Shown: positions 3,635 to 24,471 of the stretch, piece after piece
How positions within the stretch are numbered: the stretch's first letter is position 1
How the letters are laid out: each line of letters opens with the position of its first letter
Program-made: the position numbers and the translations under genes
The notes under the pieces: generated by a model
What the model was told of the DNA's origin: nothing
Databases searched by the model: none
The model's input: the letters and a program-made list of their open reading frames with translations, nothing else
Assembly: GCA_014377485.1 (NCBI GenBank)
Contig: JACMPM010000124.1
Coordinates: 1 to 40,509, forward strand
Source of the DNA: Bacteriovorax sp.
GTDB lineage: Bacteria; Bdellovibrionota; Bacteriovoracia; Bacteriovoracales; Bacteriovoracaceae
Reading direction: 5' to 3'
DNA: 40,509 nucleotides

Positions 3635-4769
3635 AAATTTCTATTTTCCTATTGGAACTCTCAAGAATTCGTTGGTTGTATACAGATTTTCCATCTTTGA
3701 TAAATAGTTTTCCTTTTGCTACGACATGAATTATTTCGAGTGTTGTACGATCAACTGCAACTAAATCTGCATCTGCACCAGGGCCTATATATCCTTTAGT
3801 ACGCAATTGGAGAATTCTCGCTGTATTGGTTGTGACTAGAGGTAATATTTTTTCCAATGACCATTTAAATACTTTCATGGCCTCTTTTATTTGTTCAAAT
3901 AAAAAACTTGGAGACGTAAATGAAGCGTCACTTGAAAGAGTTAGAAAATTTAAGTCTCCTTCATGTTCAATAAAAGATTTTAATGAGGGGATAAGGTCGC
4001 CATCGCAAGTATCAAAATCAATTGTCACTCCAGAGTGGGTGATTGCTGCACCTTCTTTTAAAAGTTGGGGATTTCGGTTTATATGCGTGGGATAAAGTGA
4101 TGTTGCGTTCACATCATAGTTTGCCAAGAGATCAAACAATGGTTGAAGATGATACTTGCCTTCTCCCAGGTGGAAATGAGTAACACCAGCTTTGCCGGTT
4201 AACATTCCTCCAACATATGCCTGAGATACAATTCTAGCAATTTCCGGAAGAGTTGGTTGAGAGCTGCGCACATCTGAGATTGCAATTTCTCCCGCTCCTA
4301 TTACTTCGTTGACTAAAATGAGATCTGATTTAATTGAGCCTGTTAGTGTTGGCGGGGGAACGGAATATCCACCTGACCAGATATAAGCAGTGAGTCCTTC
4401 TTCATTAAAAAATTTTGCCTGTGCCAATAGAGAATGAATATTTCGGGTAAACGTATCTACTCCGATACACCCTACCACCGTAGTGATTCCTCCTCTCACA
4501 ATTTCCGGAACAGTCATTTCTGGAGAGCGAGAGGCATACCCAGCTTCACCACTTCCTCCAATGAGATGTTCATGTGGATCCAGTAGCCCCGGCAACAGAA
4601 ACATTCCTTCGAGATCCAAAACATCATAAGGAATTTCTAATCCATCAAGATGAGAGCTGTTCACACTTCCTATTTTGGCAACTTTTCCTTCCAGACATAA
4701 AATATCTTTTTTTCCTAAAAATGACGGAGAATAAACTTCTGCATTTTTTAATAAGAGTACTGAAGCCAT
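3618..4769 (-). CDS. iadA: Isoaspartyl dipeptidase (beta-aspartyl peptidase, amidohydrolase superfamily)
   Basis: A 383-residue zinc-dependent amidohydrolase that splits beta-aspartyl dipeptides. The metal site HEH of LLDPHEHLIGG (residues about 66-68), the substrate-binding GGSGEAGY that follows, YIWSGGYSVPPPT and the GEIAISDVRSSQPT block all match the IadA family, and the length is standard. In this operon it would hydrolyse the beta-Asp-Arg released by cyanophycinase to free aspartate and arginine, completing cyanophycin catabolism. It overlaps the cphA 3' end by 22 bases and the cphB 5' end by 17 bases. A general role in clearing isoaspartyl dipeptides from protein turnover is possible as well. 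The TTTTGGGCATG-like context gives no strong ribosome binding site, consistent with coupling to cphA translation. Confidence 0.93.
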   Translation of the reverse strand: MASVLLLKNAEVYSPSFLGKKDILCLEGKVAKIGSVNSSHLDGLEIPYDVLDLEGMFLLPGLLDPHEHLIGGSGEAGYASRSPEMTVPEIVRGGITTVVGCIGVDTFTRNIHSLLAQAKFFNEEGLTAYIWSGGYSVPPPTLTGSIKSDLILVNEVIGAGEIAISDVRSSQPTLPEIARIVSQAYVGGMLTGKAGVTHFHLGEGKYHLQPLFDLLANYDVNATSLYPTHINRNPQLLKEGAAITHSGVTIDFDTCDGDLIPSLKSFIEHEGDLNFLTLSSDASFTSPSFLFEQIKEAMKVFKWSLEKILPLVTTNTARILQLRTKGYIGPGADADLVAVDRTTLEIIHVVAKGKLFIKDGKSVYNQRILESSNRKIEIYGKKK

Positions 4770-7435
4770 GCATTTCCCCTTTTTGATCTTTCATCAAGAT
4801 TTTTTACAAAAAGCGAGGTATCTTCACTTGGAATAGCACCAAGTTCCATTATGATTTTTTCAATAACATCAATTTCTTCGTAGAAAAAAATAACCAATTC
4901 ATCAGTTTGCATTTCATCAATTGATTTTCTTAATGCCTCTTCTGAACTCAGAACAACTTCGCAACTTATTTGCGGCTTTCTAGCTAAAATAGACTGTCTT
5001 AGAATTTCCGCAACAATACCTTTGTCTCGGCCTCTTAAGTCAACATCCTCGCGAATGATAACTTTATCAAATGCCATGGCAGACGTTTCACCCAATAATT
5101 GTATTATTTCATCAGCGCGGTCTCCAGGAGCTGCGATCACTCCTGTGATCTTATCCACATTCCATCTTTTTCCCATTTCACCAATGGATTGAAAGGCATC
5201 AGGGTTATGTCCATAATCAAGTAATAAATAACCTCTGCCGATTTTATAAAGATTGGTTCGGCCAAGATTTAATTTCTGACTAAAACTGGTTAAACTTTTT
5301 AGGATAATATCATCACTTATATTGATGGCATGAGCTCCCGCAATCGCTGCCATTACATTGGCGGCATGAAAATAGGCAGTCCCTCCCAAGGTCAATGGAA
5401 TCTCATTAATATGAATCACACTACTTTCAATTTTACCTTGCGCTTCAAAAATTTCTCCATCTCTAACAAAATAAGCGTGTCCACCGTTCGCTAAATGTTT
5501 TTTGATAACAATATTATTTGCATCGAGAGTAAAATAAGTAAGTTTTTTTGTATGCATTTCACTTCTTGGATCAAGTGTGAGTCCGACAATTTCTTTTGAA
5601 TCAGCATTTAAAATAACTGCTCCACCGGCCTTGACTCTCTCAATTACTAAAGATTTAATTTTTAGAATATCTTCTAAGCACTCAATTCCATCCTGCCCGA
5701 TATGATCTTCGGCTAAATTTGTGAATATTCCTACATCACTCCAATCATAACCGAGCCCTCGTTTTATAATGCCACCACGAGCAGTTTCAAGTACCGCGAC
5801 CTCAACACAAGGGTCAGTTAAAACTGTTCTGGCTGAAATAGGACCTGTCGTATCTCCATGTGCAACCTGAATATTATTAATATAAATCCCATCTGTAGTT
5901 GTTGTTCCTACACATTTGCCACTAGCCGCAATGATATGACTTAAAAGACGAGTGACGGTAGTTTTACCGTTTGTTCCAGTGATAGCAATAATTGGAATTC
6001 TTCCATTGGAATTATTTGGATAAAGATTATTAATAATCGCAGACCCTACTTCTCGAACTACTCCAAAACTTGGATGGTGGTGCATACGAATTCCTGGTCC
6101 CGCATTCACTTCTATAATTCCTCCGCTTTGAGAACTCATAGGAAGACGAATATCTTCAGCAATTAAATCGACTCCACAAATATCAAGGCCAACAATGCGT
6201 ACGGCCCTCTCACACATAGATTGAATGTCAGGATGAACTTCCGAAGTACGATCAATAGCGATTCCGCCAGTAGAAAGATTTGCCGTTTCTTTCAAAAAAA
6301 CATATTCATTTTTTTTCGGAATACTGTTGAGAGTGATGCCTGATTTTGAAAGAAGTGTTTCTGTTTCAATGTTCAATACAATTTTTGTGAGAGGTTTTTC
6401 GTGACCGATCCCTCGAAGAGGATTGCGATTTTCATTTTCTATTAATTCACTTAAACATAGTTCACCGTCCCCAATCACATGGGCCGGAACTCTCTCCGAA
6501 GCCGCCACCATTTTTCCACCTACTACCAGGATTCGATAATCTTTTCCTTTTAAGCATTCTTCAATCATCACAATATCAGAGTGTATACGGGCCAAATGAA
6601 ATGCCGATTGTATTTCTTCTGGAGAAGAAAGATTAACTGTAACTCCTCTGCCATGATTTGCATCTATGGGCTTAACGACAAGAAAGCCTGGAATTTCTTC
6701 TCGAATTTCCATCGCCTCTTCTAACGAATAAGCAGGTCTTCCTCTCGGAACTCGAATTGAAGCTTCTTCTAATAATTTTTTGGTCAGATTTTTATCTTTA
6801 GCTATATCAACTGAAATATCCGAGGTCATACTTGTAGTTGTCGCTTGAATGAACTGTCGATTTATTCCATAACCTAATTGAATTAAACTTTTATCGTTCA
6901 ATCTTCGCCAGGGAATATTTCTTTTTTTAGCTGCATCTAAAATAGCCCGTGTTGAAGGACCAAGCTCGTTAATGCTAATAATGTTTTTGGTATTTTTTAT
7001 ACAAGTATCAAGATCGAAAGATTCTCCAAAAACCAGCTTTTCTGCTAGCTTTACTGCAGACTGAAGTAGAAACTTCATTCCTTCTTCACACCTATAGCGG
7101 GTGATTATCAGATATTTTCCAACCGCCCCACCATATACTGATTTACCATAACTCACACCAATACCTGACATTTCACTTAATTCAATCGCAATATGCTCGA
7201 TGATATGAGCAAAATAAGTTCCATTTCTTAAGCGCTCAACAAAACCACCTGAATGTCTAAGAGAACAATGATGATTTTTTAAACCGGGTAAAAGTGAAAT
7301 CAGACGTCCGGAAAATCCCGAAACATCAGTGCTTGCAATCTCTGCTAATGATTCTAATTCTAGACTCATTATGAGAACCGGGCGGTGATGATAAACATTT
7401 GGGCCGGTGATAGTGCGAATGTCCAAAATTTTCAT
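4748..7435 (-). CDS. cphA: Cyanophycin synthetase
   Basis: An 895-residue enzyme that polymerises aspartate and arginine with ATP into multi-L-arginyl-poly-L-aspartate without ribosomes. The order is that of CphA1: an N-terminal domain (about 1-160), an ATP-grasp ligase with VVKPIDANHGRGV (Lys255) up to about residue 475 that includes EVNAGPGIRMHHHPS, then a Mur-ligase-like module with the P-loop ITGTNGKTT (Lys491), TNLAEDHIGQDG and LLDYGHNPDAF. The length matches characterised CphA1 proteins (about 870-900 aa). Both ATP sites look intact, so the enzyme should be active. It is first in an overlapping cphA-iadA-cphB set. The start has GGAAAG just upstream. A candidate -10 box on this strand lies at 7603-7608. 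Confidence 0.96.
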   Translation of the reverse strand: MKILDIRTITGPNVYHHRPVLIMSLELESLAEIASTDVSGFSGRLISLLPGLKNHHCSLRHSGGFVERLRNGTYFAHIIEHIAIELSEMSGIGVSYGKSVYGGAVGKYLIITRYRCEEGMKFLLQSAVKLAEKLVFGESFDLDTCIKNTKNIISINELGPSTRAILDAAKKRNIPWRRLNDKSLIQLGYGINRQFIQATTTSMTSDISVDIAKDKNLTKKLLEEASIRVPRGRPAYSLEEAMEIREEIPGFLVVKPIDANHGRGVTVNLSSPEEIQSAFHLARIHSDIVMIEECLKGKDYRILVVGGKMVAASERVPAHVIGDGELCLSELIENENRNPLRGIGHEKPLTKIVLNIETETLLSKSGITLNSIPKKNEYVFLKETANLSTGGIAIDRTSEVHPDIQSMCERAVRIVGLDICGVDLIAEDIRLPMSSQSGGIIEVNAGPGIRMHHHPSFGVVREVGSAIINNLYPNNSNGRIPIIAITGTNGKTTVTRLLSHIIAASGKCVGTTTTDGIYINNIQVAHGDTTGPISARTVLTDPCVEVAVLETARGGIIKRGLGYDWSDVGIFTNLAEDHIGQDGIECLEDILKIKSLVIERVKAGGAVILNADSKEIVGLTLDPRSEMHTKKLTYFTLDANNIVIKKHLANGGHAYFVRDGEIFEAQGKIESSVIHINEIPLTLGGTAYFHAANVMAAIAGAHAINISDDIILKSLTSFSQKLNLGRTNLYKIGRGYLLLDYGHNPDAFQSIGEMGKRWNVDKITGVIAAPGDRADEIIQLLGETSAMAFDKVIIREDVDLRGRDKGIVAEILRQSILARKPQISCEVVLSSEEALRKSIDEMQTDELVIFFYEEIDVIEKIIMELGAIPSEDTSLFVKNLDERSKRGNAWLQYSY

Positions 7436-8790: not shown

Positions 8791-9516
8791 ATGAAATTTT
8801 TACTTTTAATCTCTTTAATATCTATTTTTTTTACATCACAAGCTTGGGCCCGCGAAATTGAAATCATCAAAGAACATTCTAAAATATCTTTTGATATCGA
8901 CTATATGCTTATGACTAAAGTACAAGGTCAGTTTAAGGACTATCGTGGAACATTAAATATTAATGAAGAAAAAGGTGAGCTTTATAATATAAATGTTATT
9001 GCTGTTGTAAACAGCATTGATACGAATGATGCAAAAAGAGACTTTCACTTAAAAGGTATGGAATTTTTTCAAGCGACAAATTATCCAGAAATCATTTTTG
9101 AAAGCAAAGGACCTTTTAAGATTTCTTCTCAAAAAAAATTTAGCTTAGTGGGAGTTCTAACTGTTAGAGGAATCAAAAGACCCATCATTCTAGAAGGAAT
9201 CTACAAAGGAAAACTAAAGGATCCCTGGAATAAAGAAAATTATTTTTTTGAACTTACAGGTGACATAGACCGGAAAGCTTACGGTATGGTTTGGAATAAA
9301 AAAATGGATAATGGAGGCGTATTAATTGGTGACAAGGCCCATATAAGCATAACCATTCAAGCACAGGCCACAGGTGACAAAACTGCATTCTCAACACATA
9401 TGATTCCAAGTACCAAAGGGATCATTGAGAGAGATCAGCTTAAAAAAGGATTAATCAAAAAGCTCTCTACCTCGACCGATCCAATAGATCATCCGTCCGA
9501 TAAAGAAAAAAAATAA
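8791..9516 (+). CDS. YceI-family periplasmic protein with C-terminal extension
   Basis: A 241-residue protein with a signal peptide (about 1-20, ending SQAWA). It is followed by the YceI lipocalin-like beta-barrel: SKISFDIDYMLM, VNSIDTNDAKRDFHLKG, FEATNYPEI-type and GVLTVRGIKRPI motifs, ending with the GGVLIGDKAHI strand near residue 188. YceI proteins bind isoprenoid-like lipids in the periplasm. About 45 extra residues after the barrel are rich in Lys, Ser and Thr and are not part of the domain. The start is set by a strong GGAGG 7 bases upstream. A decayed copy of the same family lies at 24495-24700. Confidence 0.9.
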   Translation: MKFLLLISLISIFFTSQAWAREIEIIKEHSKISFDIDYMLMTKVQGQFKDYRGTLNINEEKGELYNINVIAVVNSIDTNDAKRDFHLKGMEFFQATNYPEIIFESKGPFKISSQKKFSLVGVLTVRGIKRPIILEGIYKGKLKDPWNKENYFFELTGDIDRKAYGMVWNKKMDNGGVLIGDKAHISITIQAQATGDKTAFSTHMIPSTKGIIERDQLKKGLIKKLSTSTDPIDHPSDKEKK

Positions 9517-10073: not shown

Positions 10074-13000
10074 TTAAATTAGTTCAACTGTTACTTTATG
10101 AAGAGCTCCATCATCAACGAGCTCAATAAATGCTTTATCTTCATCAACAGCTTTTCCATCCAACGACATTTTACTGACTCCAAAAGCTAATCCCAAAGGA
10201 TTATTAACTTCTATTTCATAAGTAGTTTTGAGATGGCGATAAGTAATTTTATACGATTTCCATTCCGGATGAATACGAGGATCAATTTTTAATTTATTTC
10301 CGGTCAACTTGAATCCTAAGATTGATTCAATTCCAGTGGTGTACATCCATCCAGCAGAACCCGTATACCAAGTCCAGCCACCGCGACCGACATGAGGTGC
10401 TTCAGAATAAACATCCGCGGCAATAACATAAGGTTCAACTTTATAGCGATGGGCCTCAATATTTGTGAGACTGTGATTGACTGGATTAATCATTGAAAAA
10501 AGCTCGACCGCTCTGCGCCCGTTATCCAGGCCAGTGTAGGCCAGAATACACCAAATTGCGGCATGAGTGTATTGCCCACCATTTTCTCTTACACCTGGAA
10601 TATATCCTTTTATATAACCTGGATCATGGGGCGTTTTATTAAATGGAGGTGTAAATAAAAGAATCATCTTCTCTTCATTTTTAATTAAATTTTGTTCCAC
10701 GGATTCCATCGCATGAATAGATCGCTCGCGGTCACCTGCTTTTGAAATCACTCCCCATGTTTGGGCCAGAGAATCAATTCGGCATTCACTATCTTTTGCT
10801 GAGCCAAGAGGAGTGCCATCGTCATAAAATGCTCTTCTATACCAATCGCCATCCCATGCCTGATCTTCAATACCCGATTTCAATTTTGTCAGATGATCTC
10901 TCCAATTAGCTGCACGTTTTTCCTCGCCTCTTGATTCTGCAATCTTCGCAAATTCAAATAAATTGGAAATTAAAAACCAGGCAAGCCACACACTTTCTCC
11001 TTTTCCGCCATGGCCCACTCGATTCATACCATCATTCCAGTCTCCGCCTCCCATAAGTGGAAGACCATGGATACCAACAAGTAAACTATGGTCGATAGCT
11101 CGAGCACAATGCTCGTATACTGAACCTTTTTCTGTTGAAATTTCCGGTGTGTAATATGAATCTTCTTTTTCAAGAGTTAGTAACGGCCCTTTTAAAAAAG
11201 ACATCTCTTCTTCCAAAACAGCAAAATCTTCTGAAATACGCATGTAGTAAGACACTACGAAAGGCAGCCATAAAAGATCATCAGAAAAATGAGTGCGAAC
11301 ACCTCTACCAGTGGGCATATGCCACCAATGTTGAACGTCTCCTTCGTGAAATTGTCTTGAAGCGGCCCTTAGAATTTGTCCTCTTATCATTTCGGGCTTG
11401 GTCCAGATAACGGCCATAGAATCTTGCAATTGATCTCTAAAACCAAAAGCTCCGCCGGCCTGATAAAATGCCGAGCGTGCCCAAAGGCGACAAACAGTTG
11501 TCTGATAAAGCAGCCATCGATTGAGCATGAGATTCATTGAGAGATCGGGAGTTTCTACTTGAATTTTACCTAAAATATTATTCCACTCACCAATCACATC
11601 ATTGAAATGATCATTCACATTTTGCTTGCTAATTTCTACTATTAATTCTTGAGCTTTTAGCTGATTTTCGGTTTGACCGAGAAGAAATATAATTGTCACT
11701 TCTTCAAATGCATTAATCGTAATATTTTTTTTAAGAGCGGCACATGCATCCATCCCCGCTCCCACACTTCCTGAGAGCTCAATATTTCTAATCAGAGCTT
11801 CCGGTCGTTTCATATTGCCATTCCTGCCAATAAATTCTGTGCGATTACCTGTCCACGAATCGTTACCGCCAACAAATGTAGCAAAGGCACATCGTGATCC
11901 AAATTCTTGATTCCAAGGATTGTAACTAAATAAACTACCGGTTTTTTCATCGTGATCGGATATTAGATAGGTCGAACTCACAGTTCTAGAAAAACCTAAG
12001 ACCCATTCGATGTAAGATGTAATAGTAAGACTGCGCTTTGCACTTGATTCATTTTTTAAAACAAGTTTAGAAATTTTTACCGGTAAATTATTGTGAACAA
12101 ATTGAGTAAGAGTGCTTTTAATTCCGTGATGCCGAAGTTCGAACTGGCTATACCCTTGTCCATGTCTAATAAGATACTCGGCGTTTTCCACTCTAATTGG
12201 TGAAATTGTTGGACTCCACAATTCTTCGCTGTCTTGATCAAAGATATAAAAGCATTCACCCGCTGGATCACTAATAGGATCATTTGACCAGGGAGTCAGT
12301 TGATTTTCCCGACTATTCATCGACCAGGTAGATCCTGCGCCACTTTCAGAAACGTGAAAACCAAACTGAGTATTAGCAATAACATTTATCCAAGGAGCTG
12401 GAGTGCACTCGTCTTTTTTTAGATGAATGACATACTCCAATCCTTGATCAGTAAAACCACCAAATCCATTATAAAAATCTAACTTGGGCACGAATAAAGG
12501 TTTTTCTGAAGCTTCTGCAAGCGATGTCTGGACATTTAAATTTGTGAAAGATTTTTCTACTTTTCTAATCATCCGCTTAACTTGTTCAGCTAAATTTCCA
12601 AGGCGGCCAACCAATATTGCTCGAGCGGCCGTTTGCAATAGATTGCGATCTTCCGGTGGAAGAATATCTGAACGTAATAGAAAAATTTTACCTTTTGATT
12701 GCGGTAAGTAAGTTCCGGAAGTTAATGTTGATCCGGAGACCATTGCTTCAAGCGAATCGTGAAGTTCTTGCGAATATGAACTAACTTTCTCATTAAGAAT
12801 AATAAGATCAACGATCAAACGTTTTGTTCCCCAATATTCATGAGCTCGCAAGAGCTGTCTTACAAGAGAACGCTGTTCGATATTATCGATACGAACCAGT
12901 ATAATTGGATAATCTCCAGAAATACCGTAGGCCCATAAGTTAGTTGCATTTCGCTCATTGCGTTTTAAAATATCACTCGAAACTCGAAGAGAAGAATCCA

Positions 13001-16000
13001 GATAAATAATTCTATTGGCGAGCTGTTGAAATAGATTGGCCTCACCATGATCAATTCCCAAATAATGAAGTTTTACCTGAGCATCGGTCCAGGCTAAATT
13101 TGAAGTTCGCTCATAAGATGTTGCTTCATGAAATTTTTCAGCAAGATTTATAATTTCTTCCCGGCTCGAAGACATGATAGTTGAATAAGTAATTGTAGCC
13201 GTTGCTCCAGGTTCAATACGAATTCTTGATCTTAGACTTATTATGGGATCAAGAACTGAACCTACAGAGTTGGATAATTTTTTAGCCTCTATCGAAATTG
13301 GATTATTGATAGTCCTGCCTCTGCCAATAAAACATGCTCGATCAGTTTCGTACTCAATCTCTCCAATCGCATTTGAATCTGTAGAAATTACCTGGGCCAT
13401 CCAAACAGGAGCTTCAGTCAGTGAGCGCGGTCTCCTTGTTGCCAACAACGAAGTAATCTCTGAAATATATTCTGTTTGCACAAAGAGATTTGAAAAAGTG
13501 GGATGAGCTATATCCGCGCCTTGAGTATTCAATACAACTTCTGAGTAAGTTGTGACTTCAATAACTTTGACCTCTGATCCATTATTGGTAAGACTCAGGC
13601 GCCTGATCTCGGCATTTTCTTCTGGTGAAACAAAAATTTCCAAATGAGAAGTTACAAATTTATCTTCTCGGGTGATTTTGGCACGGTCCTCAGTAAAAAT
13701 AACTTCATATTTTGAAGGCTCTACACATGTTGGCTGAAATCCCGCCGACCAAATATCATGTGAGTGAATATCTCGCAAATAAATATAACTTCCCCAATTA
13801 TCCCGCGTGACATCTTCACGCCATCTGGTCAAAGAAAGTTCTTCAAACCGGCTATAGCCTGAACCGGCAGTGGTGATCATTACAGAGTAATGGCCATTAG
13901 ACAGAAGATGGGTTCTTGGAACTCGGTGATGAGGTGAGAAATATTGTCGAATGGTATTTTCACCACCTTCATTAACATGCTCAACTTTAACCGACTCCGC
14001 TCTGGTTTTTGCCACGACAATATTGCGAGGTGTGCGCTCTTGCAAAAGCAGTTCACTTGACTGAATAATAGGCTCTCGATGAAATCGTTTAGGCATTAAA
14101 CCATCGTGAATAATATTTGAAATTGAAACTAATGACATACCTTGATGGTGGGCCATATAAGTTTTTACTATTGCCGATTCACGTCCCTCCGGGATACGAG
14201 ATTTTGTAAAATCTATTGATTCATAAAAACCATAGACCCCTTCTGCATTTAATGCCGATAGACGCTTAAGATTTTTTACAGCACTGATTGGATCATACAT
14301 TCCGGCCAGTATGGTCGCGTAAGGAGCAATAACTAAATCTTTTCCAATACCCCGCTTAAATGCCAGGTCTGGAACTCCAAAGTTAGAATATTGATAAGTC
14401 AGATGCAGGTCTCGGGAGTTATAGGCAGATTCTGACATACCCCACGGTATTGATAATCCATCTGCATAATCAATTTGTTTTTTTACAATCAATCTACAAG
14501 TTTGTTCTAGCAGACTAGATGCAGGAGTATTCATAACCAACGAAGGCATGAGGTATTCAAACATTGAGCCCGACCAAGAAATCAATGCTGTTCCTTTTTC
14601 TATAGAAGTGAGCGCTCGCCCAAGTCTAAACCAATGAGCCGCTGGAACATCACCTTTGGCAATGGCAACTAAACTAAGCAGTCTTGCCTCACTCGCTAAA
14701 AGATCGTAGTAACTCGCGTCCAGAGAAGAGTCTGACATGCGATAGCCAATAGAAAAAAGTTTTCTTGTAGAATCATAAAGAAAACTGAAATCCATTTCGT
14801 AAACGAGTTCTCGAGATGTGACTGCCAACCCAATTAATTTTTCTCTTAGTTTTTTTGAGCTATTAATACTGGTTGAATTAAACTGAAAATAATCTCTCGC
14901 ATGACTCTTAATCTCTGCTTCAATAATACTTGCCCAGTTATGAATTTCATTATTTTCTTTATCGTGTTTTTTGCCGCCGTAAAATTTAATTTCATCCAAG
15001 AGAAAAGCTGATCTTGACAATAGTATTTCCCAGTGAGCACTTTTATCTGGAACTGTTTGATAGGGAGTTAATAAAAGTTTTACCAAATCATTGAGGACAG
15101 AAGAAATTAAAAAATCTGATTGTTCAGAAAATGCCTCAACTAAAAGTCTCAAGCTATCATGAATGCCTGATAAAATTTTTGACGAATAATCTATTTCTTC
15201 TTCATTTTTCCCTGCCATTTCTTCGCAGCTTTGGGCCACTGCTAACAGATGACCGGCCAAATTACCATTATCGACTGAAGAAATATAACGAGGTTCTAAA
15301 GCCCTTTTGTCAGTCGTTTCATACCAATTATAAAAATGACCATTGTAGCGTGGAAGACTTTGCATGCTTTGAAGAGTGGCTTCTAACCGTTCAATCATTT
15401 CATGAAGTCCAATCCAACCGAAATCTCTAGCGGAGATTGTAGACAATAAATAAAGACCAAAATTTGTTGGTGAACTCCGATGAGCAATAATTGGATGCGG
15501 GTCTTCCTGGAAATTATCTGGAGGTAGAAAGTTTTCTCCTTCATTCACAAATGTTGAAAAGAAACGCCAAATTTTGCGAGCACTATTTCTTAAGACAAAA
15601 ATATCATCATTTGTTAAAGGAATAATTTTATCTTTTTCAGGCGGAAGGCTTATTCTCCATGCAACAACAGGAGAACTAAGCCAAAGTACAAAGAAAGGAA
15701 TGAAAATTGCCCAGTGGGATGAATTGATACAATAAATTAAAATAACCAAGCAGATCAGAACCACTTGCATCCCCGTCATTCGTTTAAAATAACTTTTTAT
15801 ATCTATGTTCGCGCATGATTTTGATTGAGCACTTGTCGTCCATTCTAACAAATGTCTTTTAGTAACTACCAATCTCAGAAGTGTTCGAAAAATTGCATCG
15901 AAGTGAACCCATGAATGATAAGGAATAAAAATAATGTTTAAAATAAAACGACTTACTCCTAATAATAAATCTTCTGTCGTAGATCTTAATTGAATGATTA

Positions 16001-18647
16001 ACGGGATTTTTTTTTGATAAGAAAGAATTCCTTCAAAAAATGGCAATAAATGAGAGAGCGCTAGACTTAATAAACTTAAAAGTATCCATGGAACTATGTC
16101 TATTCCTGGATTGCAAAAAAGTAAAATTAACAGAATAAATATCATCGGATTTAAAAGAGAGCGGCGAAGATTATCAATCATCTTCCATCTTCCAATAATT
16201 GAAATAGAGCGTCCTTCCCTACCTAATATCCAGGGAAGAAGTTGCCAATCTCCTCTTATCCATCTGTGATTTCTAGCAACTGAAACTTCAAAATGAGAAG
16301 GAAAATCTTCAAAAAATTCAACATCACTAAGAAGACCACAGCGGGCAAAATTTCCTTCAAAAAGATCGTGACTTAAAAGTCGATTCTCTGGAGTTCGTTC
16401 TTTAAGCGCTTGCTCAAAAACATCAACATTATAAATCCCTTTTCCTGTGTAGGAGCCTTCTGCAAAAAGATCTTGATAAACATCTGAAACGGCCGCGGCG
16501 TATGGATCAATTCCACATGGTCCGGATGAGAGGCGTTGAAAAAAAGTACTGTCTACTGCAGCAGGAAGTGTTGGGGTAATTCTAGGCTGTAATATTCCAT
16601 AACCTTCAATTACCCGATTTAATTTTGTATCAAATTTGGGTTGATTCAGAGGATGAGCAAAAGTACCTACAAGCTGAGCAACTGAGCCCCTTGGCAGTTT
16701 TGTGTCTGCGTCCAAAGTGATTACGTAAGTAATATCTTTAGGTATATCCAATTTGAGTTCATCTGAAATAATAAAAGTAGTGTCTGTGGCCCCGCGAAGA
16801 AATCGATTAAACTCTTGAAGCTTTCCACGTTTTCTCTCCCACCCAAGCCATTTTTGTTCACTTTCATTCCATTTTCTATATCGGTGAAAAATAGTGAAAC
16901 GATTTTTTCCTAAAATACTAGGCCCGTATTTTGTATTGAGATAATTTATTTGTTTTATTGCAATCGATAAAAAGAGTTCATCGTCAGAAAGATGTTCAGT
17001 AGGCGCATCCCTCCAGTCAGATAAAAGAGCAAAAAAAACGGAATCATCCGGGTTTGAAAGATAATGAACTTCCAGTTGTTCAACTTGACATGCAATATCT
17101 TCTTCATTAACTAGCATTGTTGGAACAACCACAAATGTTTTCAAGTCAGAAGGAATACTTTTCGATAAATCAAGTCGAGGTAAATGGCGGGGATTCAATG
17201 AAAAAATAGTCAAACGATTAACAATGGTAATCGCCAGTTCTGAAGCAGGAAAGAGACCTAAAAAACCTAGCAAATAAAATATGGATTGATCCAATACAAT
17301 ACTTTCCTTGAGACAAAGACTCACAAAAAGCAGCATTAGAAAAAGTATACTTCCAAGATAAAGAAACTCGCGGTACGAAACATACCACCGCATGAGATGA
17401 CTTCTAAGTTTTACTTTAAAATGTATTTCTTTTTCAAATTCATATCGCCCAGTTGAAATAAGATAAAAGCCTAGGTCAAATCGTTTTTCATTAAGAGAGA
17501 TTTTATCTTTCGCCGAACGGACGCGCTCATTTTCAATTTTATTGACAAGAGCTGTAGCAACTTCAAGTTCAGATAACTTTGAACCTCGAGCGAGCTCCTC
17601 TAGACTATGGCGGTAGTTATCCCTAGTAAAAAAATCCATTTGTCCGTACACAGGAAGTTCTTGAAATTTTTCATCAACCAGACTCACTTCTTCAAAAAAA
17701 TCACGCCAATCAAGAGAAGACATTAGTCTCATACTGGTAATAATGTTTCTAACTGTTACGTTGGCAGCTATCTGACTATTGTGTTCTTCTTGTACAATTT
17801 TATCGGCAATTAGACCTTCTGAAGTTAAGCGTTCATCAAGCCATTTTAAAACACTTACAACTATTCCTTCTTGAAATCTCAATCGCTGCACAAGTTGTAC
17901 TGCAAATGCTTTTCGGAGAGGCATGTGATTTAAACTTTCTATGATTTCTTCGTCCGATCTTCTGGTCATTCCACCCAGGCCTAAAAGTTCATCGGCGATA
18001 TGATCTGCTTCTGCTCGTGCTAACTGAGATCCAGTAATACGAGCGCTGAGACGACGCAAATTTTCGATCATGACTACACGAAGAGTAATCGAGATGGCCC
18101 AAAGCTCCCCCAGAGTTAGTGGTTGAATTTTTTGATAAGACTTAAGGACGAGTTTTAATAATTCAGGATCAAAAAGTGAATCTGTATGAGCAACAAAATC
18201 CCAAGCTATGGCATAAACTCGAGGGTAACCTTGAAGCTCCACAGTTGATAGTTTAGGCAGCTCTTTATAAAATTCTGGAGGAAGATGATCTCTAATATCT
18301 TTAAGCTGCTCTTCAACAATATAAAAGTTATCAATGAGCCATTCTGCAGCTGGAGTAATTGATCTTTCCTCTCGAACTGTTGCAACTATTGATTGAAAAG
18401 ATTCAATTAATATATTTTCATTTTCAGCAACTCTCGCCGCAAGATTCACTCCCCGAGTTGGAGCAGAATAGACAATATGTTTGTGCGCCATTGTCTCTGC
18501 ATATTTCTCAAGATGAACAGCACTGAATAATTCAGCACGAATTGGATCTTCAAAAATAGTAAACACATTAAGCGGAATTTTTCTTTTTCGAAATTGCACT
18601 AAATGTCCTGTGTGATGATAAGGCCCGTCGGCATTTTGGGAATCCAT
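10074..18647 (-). CDS. Cyclic beta-1,2-glucan synthase (NdvB/Cgs type), 2857 aa
   Basis: A 2857-residue membrane protein, almost the length of Brucella Cgs and rhizobial NdvB. The N-terminus PIRAELFSAVHLEKYAE is the family signature and supports the start. Helices at about 425-475 precede a GT84 glucosyltransferase domain (about 480-830) with TLDADTK near 640 and RNHRWIRGDWQ near 800. More helices follow at about 830-995. A glycoamylase-like domain covers about 1240-1520 (YAHHQGM-type YMAHHQGMS), then beta-sandwich domains. The last is a GH94 phosphorylase-type domain (about 2330-2790) with FRDQLQDSMAV and GGDWNDGMNRVG. Such enzymes build, size and cyclise beta-1,2-glucan from UDP-glucose; the products act in the periplasm as osmoregulated glucans. 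No exporter (NdvA/Cgt) is visible in the window. The ribosome binding site is weak. Confidence 0.93.
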   Translation of the reverse strand: MDSQNADGPYHHTGHLVQFRKRKIPLNVFTIFEDPIRAELFSAVHLEKYAETMAHKHIVYSAPTRGVNLAARVAENENILIESFQSIVATVREERSITPAAEWLIDNFYIVEEQLKDIRDHLPPEFYKELPKLSTVELQGYPRVYAIAWDFVAHTDSLFDPELLKLVLKSYQKIQPLTLGELWAISITLRVVMIENLRRLSARITGSQLARAEADHIADELLGLGGMTRRSDEEIIESLNHMPLRKAFAVQLVQRLRFQEGIVVSVLKWLDERLTSEGLIADKIVQEEHNSQIAANVTVRNIITSMRLMSSLDWRDFFEEVSLVDEKFQELPVYGQMDFFTRDNYRHSLEELARGSKLSELEVATALVNKIENERVRSAKDKISLNEKRFDLGFYLISTGRYEFEKEIHFKVKLRSHLMRWYVSYREFLYLGSILFLMLLFVSLCLKESIVLDQSIFYLLGFLGLFPASELAITIVNRLTIFSLNPRHLPRLDLSKSIPSDLKTFVVVPTMLVNEEDIACQVEQLEVHYLSNPDDSVFFALLSDWRDAPTEHLSDDELFLSIAIKQINYLNTKYGPSILGKNRFTIFHRYRKWNESEQKWLGWERKRGKLQEFNRFLRGATDTTFIISDELKLDIPKDITYVITLDADTKLPRGSVAQLVGTFAHPLNQPKFDTKLNRVIEGYGILQPRITPTLPAAVDSTFFQRLSSGPCGIDPYAAAVSDVYQDLFAEGSYTGKGIYNVDVFEQALKERTPENRLLSHDLFEGNFARCGLLSDVEFFEDFPSHFEVSVARNHRWIRGDWQLLPWILGREGRSISIIGRWKMIDNLRRSLLNPMIFILLILLFCNPGIDIVPWILLSLLSLALSHLLPFFEGILSYQKKIPLIIQLRSTTEDLLLGVSRFILNIIFIPYHSWVHFDAIFRTLLRLVVTKRHLLEWTTSAQSKSCANIDIKSYFKRMTGMQVVLICLVILIYCINSSHWAIFIPFFVLWLSSPVVAWRISLPPEKDKIIPLTNDDIFVLRNSARKIWRFFSTFVNEGENFLPPDNFQEDPHPIIAHRSSPTNFGLYLLSTISARDFGWIGLHEMIERLEATLQSMQSLPRYNGHFYNWYETTDKRALEPRYISSVDNGNLAGHLLAVAQSCEEMAGKNEEEIDYSSKILSGIHDSLRLLVEAFSEQSDFLISSVLNDLVKLLLTPYQTVPDKSAHWEILLSRSAFLLDEIKFYGGKKHDKENNEIHNWASIIEAEIKSHARDYFQFNSTSINSSKKLREKLIGLAVTSRELVYEMDFSFLYDSTRKLFSIGYRMSDSSLDASYYDLLASEARLLSLVAIAKGDVPAAHWFRLGRALTSIEKGTALISWSGSMFEYLMPSLVMNTPASSLLEQTCRLIVKKQIDYADGLSIPWGMSESAYNSRDLHLTYQYSNFGVPDLAFKRGIGKDLVIAPYATILAGMYDPISAVKNLKRLSALNAEGVYGFYESIDFTKSRIPEGRESAIVKTYMAHHQGMSLVSISNIIHDGLMPKRFHREPIIQSSELLLQERTPRNIVVAKTRAESVKVEHVNEGGENTIRQYFSPHHRVPRTHLLSNGHYSVMITTAGSGYSRFEELSLTRWREDVTRDNWGSYIYLRDIHSHDIWSAGFQPTCVEPSKYEVIFTEDRAKITREDKFVTSHLEIFVSPEENAEIRRLSLTNNGSEVKVIEVTTYSEVVLNTQGADIAHPTFSNLFVQTEYISEITSLLATRRPRSLTEAPVWMAQVISTDSNAIGEIEYETDRACFIGRGRTINNPISIEAKKLSNSVGSVLDPIISLRSRIRIEPGATATITYSTIMSSSREEIINLAEKFHEATSYERTSNLAWTDAQVKLHYLGIDHGEANLFQQLANRIIYLDSSLRVSSDILKRNERNATNLWAYGISGDYPIILVRIDNIEQRSLVRQLLRAHEYWGTKRLIVDLIILNEKVSSYSQELHDSLEAMVSGSTLTSGTYLPQSKGKIFLLRSDILPPEDRNLLQTAARAILVGRLGNLAEQVKRMIRKVEKSFTNLNVQTSLAEASEKPLFVPKLDFYNGFGGFTDQGLEYVIHLKKDECTPAPWINVIANTQFGFHVSESGAGSTWSMNSRENQLTPWSNDPISDPAGECFYIFDQDSEELWSPTISPIRVENAEYLIRHGQGYSQFELRHHGIKSTLTQFVHNNLPVKISKLVLKNESSAKRSLTITSYIEWVLGFSRTVSSTYLISDHDEKTGSLFSYNPWNQEFGSRCAFATFVGGNDSWTGNRTEFIGRNGNMKRPEALIRNIELSGSVGAGMDACAALKKNITINAFEEVTIIFLLGQTENQLKAQELIVEISKQNVNDHFNDVIGEWNNILGKIQVETPDLSMNLMLNRWLLYQTTVCRLWARSAFYQAGGAFGFRDQLQDSMAVIWTKPEMIRGQILRAASRQFHEGDVQHWWHMPTGRGVRTHFSDDLLWLPFVVSYYMRISEDFAVLEEEMSFLKGPLLTLEKEDSYYTPEISTEKGSVYEHCARAIDHSLLVGIHGLPLMGGGDWNDGMNRVGHGGKGESVWLAWFLISNLFEFAKIAESRGEEKRAANWRDHLTKLKSGIEDQAWDGDWYRRAFYDDGTPLGSAKDSECRIDSLAQTWGVISKAGDRERSIHAMESVEQNLIKNEEKMILLFTPPFNKTPHDPGYIKGYIPGVRENGGQYTHAAIWCILAYTGLDNGRRAVELFSMINPVNHSLTNIEAHRYKVEPYVIAADVYSEAPHVGRGGWTWYTGSAGWMYTTGIESILGFKLTGNKLKIDPRIHPEWKSYKITYRHLKTTYEIEVNNPLGLAFGVSKMSLDGKAVDEDKAFIELVDDGALHKVTVELI

Positions 18648-20108: not shown

Positions 20109-21458
20109 TTAGATTAAAAGCGGATCTACTTCTTGCCCGGTTGCCTCAGATAAGTGGGCCCAAGACATCTGGTATCGATAAAGAGATTCATAATAATCTT
20201 TGAACACAAGAGCGCGAGTCGTATACGCGTCGATTATGTCTTTAGCTGGAGTCAATCCAAGTGCAACAGAGGCTCCAATATTGGTAAGCCATTTTTTTGC
20301 AGACTTGTATGCCTTCTTTAAGGTTTCGGCCCGATCTTGAGCCTCTTGAACTTCCATATATGATTTATTCAACAGGACCTTAAGTCCTTCTTTGGCAAAA
20401 AGTTGTTTTGATTTTAATTCAGCAATTTCTAGAACCAATTTATCCTGTTTTGACTGCGCAACTCCGAAATCAATATCCCAAGTTAAACCAACTCCCGCTG
20501 CCAAACTACTATGGTTATAAGGATCATAAATAAAGGGATTGTTTTGAGCAGTTCGCTGATTAGTTTCTGCATAATCATATTTTACGAGAGCACCAAACAC
20601 TGGTCTGGTAGCTTTCTTTTCACTAATTAAAACGCTCGATTTAGCTTGAATGCCCATATCAACTTTCAATAAGTCAGGCGAAGATTGATTCATTAAATCC
20701 AGGTAATAGTTAATACTTTTAAGTTCTCGTTGGTCCATTTCAATCCATTGCCTTTCATTTTGAACAACAGTGGTTGAATCAAATTTTAATTCTTCACCCA
20801 AATAAAAGACTACCCCCATCTGGGCCAATCTAACGTTTTTTTCAATTTCTATTCTCTTTTCCTGAACTTGATATTTAAAAACTTCAAGTCTAAGGACATC
20901 TTCTCTTTTTACCTTTTTATCTTCTAGTGCTTTAATTGCTTCTTCTAAATCTTTTTGAGTTTCGCTCACAAAATCGAGTAGCGACAAAGCATATTGCCAG
21001 CCATAGTAAGCTTCTTTTAATTTAAAAATAACTTCATTTTGTTTTTTATTGAGATCTTGTATATTGAGTTCAGTGTTTAAATTTGCCGCTCGTTTTAAAT
21101 CCTCGCCTCTGCCCCAGACAAAAAGAGGAATTTTGGCTTCAATGCTTCCAACGTATTCTGCTCCCCAAGTATTTTGATCCTGGTAGGAAGCAAAATTACC
21201 TTTTTTGCCATTAATTGGTCCGCCACCTACCATCGTACTAATTTTAGGAAACAGCTCACCTTTAATCAATGTTAGATCAGTGGCGGCTATAGCAGATTTA
21301 TAGCTTTCAGTTTTAATTTCAAGATTATTTTTTAGGGCCAGCGCAATGGCTTCTTTAAGACTAACTGTGCGCGAATTAGCGGGAGTTTCTGTTTGAAAAG
21401 CTTTGGCTCCCGAACAAGAAAGCATTAAAAAAATTGTAATAATTGCAGTTAATCGCAT
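20109..21458 (-). CDS. TolC-family outer membrane channel protein
   Basis: A 449-residue exported protein with a signal peptide (about 1-20). The family start VSLKEAIALALKNNLEIKTESYK and the second repeat (QDKLVLEIAELKSKQLFAKEG, then a long helix to about 400) show the duplicated TolC plan of strands and coiled helices. The partner proteins would lie in the inner membrane and periplasm. Its ATG overlaps the mlaC-like stop by one base (TAATG), which points to translational coupling. With the divergent RND gene it could form an export path for lipids. No membrane fusion protein is seen nearby, which is unusual for a TolC-RND pair. Confidence 0.88.
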   Translation of the reverse strand: MRLTAIITIFLMLSCSGAKAFQTETPANSRTVSLKEAIALALKNNLEIKTESYKSAIAATDLTLIKGELFPKISTMVGGGPINGKKGNFASYQDQNTWGAEYVGSIEAKIPLFVWGRGEDLKRAANLNTELNIQDLNKKQNEVIFKLKEAYYGWQYALSLLDFVSETQKDLEEAIKALEDKKVKREDVLRLEVFKYQVQEKRIEIEKNVRLAQMGVVFYLGEELKFDSTTVVQNERQWIEMDQRELKSINYYLDLMNQSSPDLLKVDMGIQAKSSVLISEKKATRPVFGALVKYDYAETNQRTAQNNPFIYDPYNHSSLAAGVGLTWDIDFGVAQSKQDKLVLEIAELKSKQLFAKEGLKVLLNKSYMEVQEAQDRAETLKKAYKSAKKWLTNIGASVALGLTPAKDIIDAYTTRALVFKDYYESLYRYQMSWAHLSEATGQEVDPLLI

Positions 21459-22042
21459 TATGTTTTTTTATTAGCTTTTAGTTCATTTAATCTTTTATTC
21501 AAAAGATCTTTTAAACCATTCCATCCTTTCTCTTTTAAGGTTTTTTGAACTTTCTCATTTATTGTTTTTACCCATGATTCATCATCAATTGAAACATCCA
21601 CAACTTTCCAATCAGTTCCAATTTTTTTCAAAAGATAATCGACATCAGTTGACTCGCCTTTTTTATTAACACTCGAAAAAACCTTGGCATCGTCCGTATT
21701 TTGTTTTGTCTTTTTATAAGTGATCTTAACATTTTCTAAAAACTTAGGAGCAGAAGGATATACCGATCTTGTAATAATTTCTTTTATTGTCGATTCAAAC
21801 CATTTTAACTCGGCCGGCGAGCGTTTTGCGATTTCTTGCCCCAAGATCACTTTTGTCATTTCATTGAAGTCAACGTGCAATTCAACTTCTTCTTTAGATT
21901 TACTATTTAATAATAAATTTTCATGACCGACCTTTACAAAAATGTCTTTAATCAGATCTTCAGGAGTTATAGCTGCTTGAACAGCATTTATGATTAGTAA
22001 ACCAAGGAATAAGCTACAGAAAGTAAGCAGAATTTTCTTCAT
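21458..22042 (-). CDS. MlaC/HpnM-family periplasmic lipid-binding protein
   Basis: A 194-residue protein starting at the ATG at 22042, where AGAAGAGAT precedes and a clean signal peptide (MKKILLTFCSLFLGLLII ... VQA) begins. An in-frame upstream ATG at 22117 would bury the signal peptide. The mature part matches the Ttg2D/MlaC fold: VDFNEMTKVILG, an Arg-Ser-Pro-rich turn, and the late strand block VDYLLKKIGTDWKVVDVSIDDESWV. MlaC proteins carry phospholipids between the membranes; HpnM, of the same family, is encoded beside the RND protein HpnN in hopanoid clusters. Here it sits divergently beside an HpnN-like gene and is coupled to a TolC gene. No MlaD/E/F components are present in the window. 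Confidence 0.88.
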   Translation of the reverse strand: MKKILLTFCSLFLGLLIINAVQAAITPEDLIKDIFVKVGHENLLLNSKSKEEVELHVDFNEMTKVILGQEIAKRSPAELKWFESTIKEIITRSVYPSAPKFLENVKITYKKTKQNTDDAKVFSSVNKKGESTDVDYLLKKIGTDWKVVDVSIDDESWVKTINEKVQKTLKEKGWNGLKDLLNKRLNELKANKKT

Positions 22043-22152
22043 ATGTATCTCTTCTAATTGTGAATGTTTTAAGAGTTGAGATAATAATTTTTTTCTCATT
22101 ATGTCAATATTACTCATGTACAGATTCGATAAAAAATCTTATCTAGAGAATA

Positions 22153-24471
22153 ATGAAAAAACTATTGCAACTTAACCTACGATTCTATTGGATTGCACCA
22201 ATTTTCCTCATACTATTTGCCTGTTTTGGGGTCAAATATTCATCCAAACTTAAGATCAATTTGGATCTAGTTGGGCTACTTCCACAAAATAGTGAAAGTA
22301 TTCAAGAAATGAATCATGTGGTCTCAAAAGTCGGTGGAGGGGGCTATATCATAGTTCTGGTTGGGCCGATCACAAATCCCGAATCTAAACTAAATCTAAT
22401 TGACGAAAAAATTAAGAACATAAAAGATGTCAAATATACCTATTATGAGCGTGAAGAATTCATGCTTAAAGATAAAGCTCTTTACATCATGCCGAGGAAA
22501 GACTTTAAAAAACTAACTGAATATGCTCGAGTCATATTCTCAAAGAATGCTGTAGATACTACCGGTCTTGGACTTGTTGACGAATCAGATCGCGAAGAAC
22601 AATTAAAAGAAGCAAATAATTTTTTTAATAAGTTAAAAAAGAGAACCAGCTCGGACCGTTATTTTATATCTTCTGATAAAAAATACGTCATGCTCTTAGT
22701 AAGGCCAACTTTTGATTCAACCAACCTCGCTAGGTCAAAAGAATTAGCAGAAAATATTACGGCAGGAATTGAATCACTGTTTGAAAATAACCAACAGGCC
22801 ATATTCCCCTATAGTCTCTCTGGTCGCTATATTGAAAAAGCTCAAGAAGAAAAACAGTTTGAAAAAGATATTTCTAAAACAGGAATCATTAGCAATATTG
22901 CAATCACCGTTTTATTAGTTTGGGGTTTAGGAACATTTAGAGGAGCCTTTGCTACAGTTCTGGTCGTCGCCATCGCCATGTGCGTGACTAGCGGACTGGC
23001 TTTTTTCGCAATCGGGCAAATTAATATCCTGACTGGTTTCTTGCTCGCCATTCTCTCTGGCCTTGGCTCCAAGTTTGGAATCCATTTAATCAGGCGCTAT
23101 TATCAAGAAAGGCAAAAAGGCGCGGACAAAGAAACGGCTACAAGAAATACTTATTTTCACCTCAGTCGAAGAGCATTATTTTCTTCTGCACTAACCTCTT
23201 CATGCTCATTTTTTATTCTCGCTTACTCTAAATTCAGAGGATTCTCTGAGTTAGGCATCATCGCCGGTATGGGTATTATAGTCATCTATTTAGTATTCGT
23301 TTTAGCCTTTCCTATGATTGCTAAAATTTTGCCTGAAAGAAGTGCACTGAGCAGACGATCAAGATTTCCCCTTGGAAAATACCCGTTCAATTTGAAATGG
23401 ATAAAAATTCTTCCTCTTTTTATTCCGATCTTTATTTATGGTTTAGCTAGTGCTTATTTTGAATATGATTTTGATAAACTTCATAACTTCCCGCCGGAAC
23501 TTCAACGGACTAATGAATTAACTGACAAGATTTTTGGTCGGGCAATTTCGCCTTCAGCAATCCTGGCACGCGATAAAGAACAAGTTATAGCACTAACCGA
23601 TTGGCTCAGAAGCGACGATAACGCTCAAACCATTGATCAAGTGGTTTCGATGTATGACTTAGTACCACCTGATATGAAAAAACGCGCAGAGAGGCTTAAA
23701 ATGCTTCGCTCGTATGTTTATAAAGTAGATGCTGAAGAACTTGAGAAAAAATCCGGGATATCAAAAGAGAGCATTTATAAATGGATTAATGCTCCTATGT
23801 ATGACCGTTCAATTATCCCTCGGGCAATTAATGATAATTTTGGGAGCGACGGCAATATCATAATTGTTTTTCCAAAAGAAAAACAAAGTAATTATGAAAC
23901 GATCACTCGATATGCTCATACTTTAGCTGATGCTAAAAAAGAATTTCCTGGAATGGAAGTTGGTAGCGATACCTTAGTTTTTTCAGAAATTTTAACCCAT
24001 ATTATTGAAGACGGTAAACTGGTCCTGGTCTTTTTCTTGCTGGGGGCATTTTTTATTTTCTGGTTAGACTTCAAAAATATAAAAGACGCTTTATTGCTTG
24101 AAGCTCAATTAGTTTTTTGTGTTATTCTCTTAATAGCTTTTATGGGTATTGCTCATGTGCCATTTACGATTCTCAACGTCGCGATGATTCCTGAAGTTCT
24201 TGCCGCTGGGATAGACATGGGGGTTCATATAAGGCATCGGGAAAAAGAAGGTCATAGTTCATTAGCAAGTGCGAAATTAATTTCACATGCAGTCCAGCTT
24301 GGAGCCCTTACTTCTATCTTAGGATTTGGCTCTATGTTATTCACCAGTTCAAAAATGCTTCAAGGGATTGCCTGGATTTCTATTTTGGGCCAGGTTTCCT
24401 CATATTTTGTCTGTATGTTTGCTGTTCCATTAATCAAAGATTTTTTTAGCAAACACTATAAGGAAGTTTAA
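22153..24471 (+). CDS. RND-superfamily transporter, MMPL/HpnN type
   Basis: A 772-residue inner membrane protein with the RND duplication: helix 1 at about 12-30, a periplasmic loop, five helices at about 240-395, a second periplasmic loop, and helices at about 415-435 and 625-765. The first sterol-sensing-like repeat contains GLGSKFGIHLIRRYYQE and the second AAGIDMGVHIRHREKEG. The usual transmembrane-4 Asp is kept in the second repeat but appears as Lys in the first. The size and architecture fit hopanoid or lipid exporters (HpnN, MMPL) better than drug pumps of about 1000 aa. It is divergent from the mlaC-like gene with a shared 110-base control region. Substrate is inferred only. Confidence 0.88.
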   Translation: MKKLLQLNLRFYWIAPIFLILFACFGVKYSSKLKINLDLVGLLPQNSESIQEMNHVVSKVGGGGYIIVLVGPITNPESKLNLIDEKIKNIKDVKYTYYEREEFMLKDKALYIMPRKDFKKLTEYARVIFSKNAVDTTGLGLVDESDREEQLKEANNFFNKLKKRTSSDRYFISSDKKYVMLLVRPTFDSTNLARSKELAENITAGIESLFENNQQAIFPYSLSGRYIEKAQEEKQFEKDISKTGIISNIAITVLLVWGLGTFRGAFATVLVVAIAMCVTSGLAFFAIGQINILTGFLLAILSGLGSKFGIHLIRRYYQERQKGADKETATRNTYFHLSRRALFSSALTSSCSFFILAYSKFRGFSELGIIAGMGIIVIYLVFVLAFPMIAKILPERSALSRRSRFPLGKYPFNLKWIKILPLFIPIFIYGLASAYFEYDFDKLHNFPPELQRTNELTDKIFGRAISPSAILARDKEQVIALTDWLRSDDNAQTIDQVVSMYDLVPPDMKKRAERLKMLRSYVYKVDAEELEKKSGISKESIYKWINAPMYDRSIIPRAINDNFGSDGNIIIVFPKEKQSNYETITRYAHTLADAKKEFPGMEVGSDTLVFSEILTHIIEDGKLVLVFFLLGAFFIFWLDFKNIKDALLLEAQLVFCVILLIAFMGIAHVPFTILNVAMIPEVLAAGIDMGVHIRHREKEGHSSLASAKLISHAVQLGALTSILGFGSMLFTSSKMLQGIAWISILGQVSSYFVCMFAVPLIKDFFSKHYKEV

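Follow-up and report, generated by a model that had tools for sequence, protein, structure and literature searches.

A TolC-family channel, an MlaC-family protein and an HpnN-like RND transporter as a candidate lipid-export module in Bacteriovorax-like bacteria

Introduction

The routes by which lipids travel to the outer membrane or the cell surface, LPS and lipoproteins apart, are still an open question. TolC-family channels are textbook partners of membrane fusion proteins, and the locus described here raises the question of whether a periplasmic lipid carrier can take the place of such a fusion protein. The locus lies in a contig of 40,509 nucleotides, analyzed at its full length and referred to below as the window, which belongs to the 3.95-Mb assembly (98.85% complete) of a Bacteriovorax-like MAG. 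A first-pass annotation had interpreted a tolC gene, an mlaC-type gene and an RND gene in the window as a lipid exporter of this kind.

Gene content and arrangement of the locus

Open reading frames and Pfam profiles placed three genes at 20109-24471, with tolC and mlaC on the minus strand and the RND gene on the plus strand, divergent to both. Matches to the OEP, MlaC and MMPL families bore out the gene assignments of the first-pass annotation, and the arrangement that it described was confirmed as well: the mlaC stop codon overlaps the tolC start codon in a TAATG, and the RND gene points away from the mlaC-tolC pair.

20109-21458, minus strand: tolC-type outer-membrane factor (449 aa; OEP PF02321, E=8e-35)
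21458-22042, minus strand: mlaC/ttg2D-type periplasmic phospholipid-binding protein (194 aa; PF05494, E=2e-19; refined start)
22043-22152, no strand: divergent intergenic region between mlaC and the RND gene (110 bp)
22153-24471, plus strand: HAE-3/MMPL (HpnN-like) RND transporter (772 aa; PF03176; NCBIfam HpnN below cut-off)

A scan for promoters and terminators yielded nothing that exceeded shuffled sequences, and no promoter-like site in the 110-bp intergenic region was above chance. As called, the mlaC ORF spans 21458-22117 (minus strand) and encodes 219 amino acids. A start at 22042 (MKKILLTFCSLFLG...), with AGAAGAG upstream as a good ribosome-binding site, is more likely; it gives the 110-bp intergenic region and a protein of 194 amino acids, which is also the length of MlaC in two other genomes (G007 and G013).

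Elsewhere in the window, a gene at 10074-18647 (minus strand) encodes a 2857-aa GH94/glucoamylase-domain protein similar to cyclic beta-1,2-glucan synthases, and another at 4748-7435 (minus strand) encodes an 895-aa cyanophycin synthetase-like protein with Mur ligase and ATP-grasp domains. YceI-like (isoprenoid-binding lipocalin-type) genes are located within about 13 kb of the three genes in several genomes of the window's genus, the only genus among the loci scanned in which they were found near the set:

Window, 8791-9516, plus strand: YceI-like gene
L042, 14712-15431: YceI-like gene
L032, 12518-13048: YceI-like gene, directly downstream of the RND gene

Properties of the three proteins

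The MlaC protein belongs to family PF05494 (70.7 bits against a gathering cut-off of 26) and does not reach the curated cut-off of HpnM, TIGR03481 (35 bits against 160). Its signal peptide, as read from the sequence, ends at a signal peptidase I-type site between AVQA and AI. A phmmer search matched it to 2qgu, a phospholipid-binding protein, and a weak structural model (pLDDT 62) gave ten significant fold matches, all of MlaC/Ttg2D type, with TM scores of about 0.4. The homologous structures contain phospholipids. The protein is the sole MlaC in the genome.

Two OEP stretches (PF02321) and a signal peptide encoded at 21399-21458, with a predicted signal peptidase I-type site between AKA and FQ, place the channel in the TolC/OEP family. 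The periplasmic tip of TolC is the docking site of fusion proteins, and an alignment of this subfamily with five further OEPs from the genome was used to compare it:

20898-20924, minus strand: TolC residues 179-187 (EDKKVKRED), tip of the first periplasmic hairpin (alignment)
20286-20300, minus strand: TolC residues 387-391 (AKKWL), [KR]KW-type signature near the second hairpin (alignment)

The TolC clade of the window has a short, basic first hairpin, without the Gly that is present in the five other OEPs of the genome. The [KR]KW-type signature before the second hairpin is shared by most members of the subfamily, among them the RND-TolC fusion described below, with KKL or a similar sequence in some others; it is missing from the other OEPs of the genome. 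The tip is thus altered where fusion proteins dock and may fit a different partner.

The RND transporter is a member of the MMPL/HAE-3 group (PF03176, E=5e-20; 72 bits against a gathering cut-off of 20.5). MMPL is the only domain above cut-off in its 772 amino acids, and the protein does not fall into the HAE-1 (ACR_tran) family with its TolC-docking domain. The best NCBIfam match was HpnN (TIGR03480, E=3e-51), at 175 bits against a curated cut-off of 752, and the nearest solved structures are those of HpnN (6wu0 and 5khn). An AlphaFold model built with six close sequences had a pLDDT of 36. Two positions in transmembrane segments were compared across relatives:

23071-23073, plus strand: RND codon 307, a Lys in TM4; Asp or Glu in almost all close relatives
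24214-24216, plus strand: RND codon 688, the TM10 Asp (AAGIDMGVH) that is conserved across the clade

Lys307 occurs in the window's subclade (the window, G004, G001 and G005), all four sequences of which still keep the TM10 Asp; most clade members have Glu or Asp in TM4. Because HpnN aligned at the same sites has an Asp in TM4 and a non-acidic residue in TM10, the charge arrangement of the module (Asp or Glu/Asp in most of the clade, Lys/Asp in the window) is not the same as that of HpnN. Judged from these residues, a proton relay seems possible with either arrangement. Many genomes that have neither this TolC nor this MlaC also encode RND transporters of the wider family, and these transporters lie largely on separate branches of the RND tree. 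A plasmid search recovered distant MMPL genes only, one of which, in Haliovirga, adjoins a LolA-like gene.

The RND transporter and TolC are joined in one genome (G046; L049:298-3987, minus strand) in a single ORF of 1230 aa, in which the MMPL domain is followed by the OEP domain. The junction is formed by a basic linker together with a segment that resembles a signal peptide and ends between AYA and EE, and no in-frame ATG, GTG or TTG is found between the RND C-terminus and this segment. Signal peptidase may cleave the product as a polyprotein; an assembly error is also possible, since the ORF was seen just once and the MAG is fragmented.

Conservation and joint presence of the three genes

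A search of other genomes, which the first-pass annotation had proposed as a check, showed that the three genes stay linked in over a dozen genomes, which represent five genera and differ in the genes around the set. The neighborhood is conserved; a lack of conservation had been named as evidence against the exporter. The divergent arrangement of RND and mlaC-tolC is present in genus g1 as well as in g9 (G021), g52 (G093) and g67 (G150), where the genes on either side mostly differ; a single operon, mlaC-tolC-RND, is found in g61 (G106), and G007 has the set divided between contig ends. Partial arrangements include mlaC immediately before tolC with no linked RND gene (families f2, f7, f24 and f29), tolC divergent from the RND gene with mlaC not adjacent (f4; G037, G045, G305 and G306), and an mlaC-RND pair without tolC (G024); MlaC is not adjacent to the TolC or RND genes in f3 and f4. 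At 25 of the 65 mlaC places, the window counted, the gene that follows in the same direction within 250 bp is tolC. Chance does not account for the grouping of the three genes.

A search for substrate genes near the set in other genera found unrelated genes only, none of them recurring across families; the neighbors included genes for myo-inositol-phosphate synthase, tRNA modification, an amino acid kinase and FtsEX/EnvC-like proteins. The latter belong to family f2 (L135:111-5736; L174; L175), in which mlaC-tolC comes after genes that encode ABC-ATPase, FtsX-like and M23-peptidase domains. The FtsEX/EnvC-like identity was tested in L135, where a DUF3047 gene lies in between.

Of the 129 family genomes, 17 have MlaC, 18 this TolC and 19 this RND transporter, the counts differing only by G010, where the RND gene runs past the end of its contig and TolC is incomplete, and by G078, where the data are fragmentary. 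All 17 MlaC-bearing genomes also hold this RND transporter. MCE/MlaD is present in 119 of the 129 genomes, and MlaC does not follow it (p=0.23). Across the 369 genomes of the phylum, 52 have both TolC and MlaC, 4 have TolC only, 12 have MlaC only and 301 have neither (Fisher p=1e-46, with related genomes counted as independent, as in all these Fisher tests). Nine of the 12 MlaC-only genomes belong to f6 and f11, and those of their MlaCs that have tree rows form long separate branches. The stronger argument comes from variation within genera: the presence of the set varies inside g9 and g61, and the three genes were therefore gained or lost together. We conclude that tolC, mlaC and the RND gene very probably form one functional module.

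Fusion proteins, MlaA and hopanoid genes

No fusion-protein gene was found among the neighbors of the module tested by Pfam. A search of the genome with the Pfam family HlyD_3 gave three fusion-protein matches, each beside another OEP gene, so none is local to the module; the set indeed has no fusion protein at its locus, as the first-pass annotation had stated, and no linked one of the kind seen in AcrAB-TolC-type pumps. In the neighborhoods examined, which are annotated in part, this TolC occurs with MlaC and/or the RND transporter, or alone among unrelated genes, and no fusion protein was seen; an association with a separate fusion protein and pump, which had been named as evidence against the exporter, was thus not encountered there.

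The genome, which is 98.85% complete, gave no match to the squalene-hopene cyclase profile PF13243, so hopanoids are unlikely. MlaA (PF04333) was likewise without a match, and two MCE genes are present elsewhere in the genome. A hopanoid function, as the earlier comparison with HpnM and HpnN might suggest, was rejected on the lack of a PF13243 match, and the scores below the TIGR03480 and TIGR03481 cut-offs do not support it either.

Proposed mechanism and alternative explanations

In the mechanism that we propose, the HpnN-like RND transporter would draw on the proton gradient to extract its substrate, a lipid or some other amphiphile, from the inner membrane at the outer leaflet; the MlaC-family protein would take the lipid into its acyl-chain pocket and ferry it across the periplasm; and the dedicated TolC would receive the cargo and either pass it to the surface or act as a dock at the outer membrane. 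An adaptor-free, PMF-driven lipid exporter with MlaC as the periplasmic shuttle is the best explanation, and we lean towards it; for the full mechanism, from RND through MlaC to TolC, the case is about evenly balanced. Because the set is conserved, has no local fusion protein and includes a real MlaC-family carrier, a carrier in place of the fusion protein is the best reading, and to this extent the first-pass proposal stands. Its lipid substrate and outward direction are parts that we infer, as are the mobility of MlaC and its docking on TolC. A more specific version, in which the RND transporter hands lipid to MlaC, MlaC docks on the specialized TolC tip and discharge takes place through or at the barrel, with an RND-TolC polyprotein in one lineage, is tentative and rather unlikely. 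It is normally a fusion protein that opens a TolC barrel; we know of no MlaC that does so.

The direction of MlaC transport is debated in the Mla system, and the main rival explanation is a retrograde, homeostatic role, in which TolC takes the place of the OmpC-MlaA dock, MlaC carries mislocalized phospholipid inward and the RND transporter replaces MlaFEDB. Such a role would agree with a genome that has MlaC and no detected MlaA, and with mlaC-tolC being the most widespread pair, found with no linked RND gene in four families. However, all characterized systems known to us use RND pumps and TolC for export, and the two MCE genes of the genome could serve import. Outward movement of lipid by HpnN, stated with reference to earlier work in a passage of PMC6394551, also argues against a retrograde role, which we consider unlikely. 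The same two MCE proteins would allow MlaC to serve MCE/ABC systems encoded elsewhere, its place at the locus being incidental, but with MCE in 119 of the 129 family genomes and MlaC in just 17, all with this RND transporter, this is hardly credible.

The locus might instead combine two ordinary systems, with the RND transporter and MlaC delivering lipid to the outer membrane like HpnNM and TolC serving as a general channel for pumps with fusion-protein genes at other loci. Sharing of TolC proteins is possible, the genome does contain genes for fusion proteins, and HpnN works without an outer-membrane channel (PMC6394551). Yet this TolC is gained and lost with MlaC and the RND transporter, is fused to an RND transporter in G046 and has a tip unlike those of the other OEPs of the genome, while the detected fusion proteins each adjoin another OEP; two independent systems are therefore quite improbable. 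MlaC could also be a structural adaptor or assembly factor that bridges the RND transporter and TolC rather than a mobile carrier, and AmeB and AmeC have been proposed as fusion proteins in a Castellaniella HAE-3 pump (PMC6394551). A protein of about 170 residues with no coiled coil is nevertheless small to span the gap between RND and TolC, and the phospholipids held in homologous structures fit poorly with such a function, which appears very doubtful.

Comparison with known systems

No MlaC-TolC-RND system was found described in the open-access papers searched, and the novelty of the module is provisional, referring to the open literature only. The module is inherited as a unit in the phylum of Bacteriovorax-like bacteria and, if the proposed mechanism is true, would represent another way to use TolC; an RND transporter, MlaC and a dedicated TolC also make a compact, testable system for the direction of lipid transport.

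With AcrAB-TolC-type pumps the module shares an RND transporter and a TolC-family channel, but its RND transporter is of the HAE-3 and not the HAE-1 type, the fusion protein is absent and MlaC is present. Mla (MlaA-MlaC-MlaFEDB) likewise uses an MlaC-family periplasmic phospholipid carrier. The module is not a standard Mla system because MlaA is missing; it also has an RND transporter instead of the MCE-ABC complex, and TolC as a partner.

Two systems may serve as precedents for an HAE-3/MMPL pump that works with a lipid-carrier-like protein and no classical fusion protein. The AmeABCD monoterpene efflux system comprises an HAE-3 RND transporter, a DUF1302 outer-membrane protein, the LolA-like AmeB and AmeC (PMC6394551); it combines an outer-membrane protein with carrier-like periplasmic proteins as the module does, but these belong to other families and the system is tied to terpene metabolism. 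BstABC sterol transport pairs an HAE-3/MMPL pump with a carrier-like periplasmic protein (PMC10942540). Its MMPL/HpnN-like inner-membrane protein, periplasmic lipid binder and outer-membrane-associated protein parallel the three components here, whereas the binder and outer-membrane families are different and the substrate is a sterol.

The closest comparison is with HpnN/HpnM, which likewise consists of an HAE-3 RND transporter and an MlaC-family protein and includes, in HpnN, the best solved relative of the RND transporter. The module differs in its dedicated TolC, in a genome with no squalene-hopene cyclase detected and in scores below the family cut-offs; it would operate in the manner of HpnN/HpnM, supplemented by a channel.
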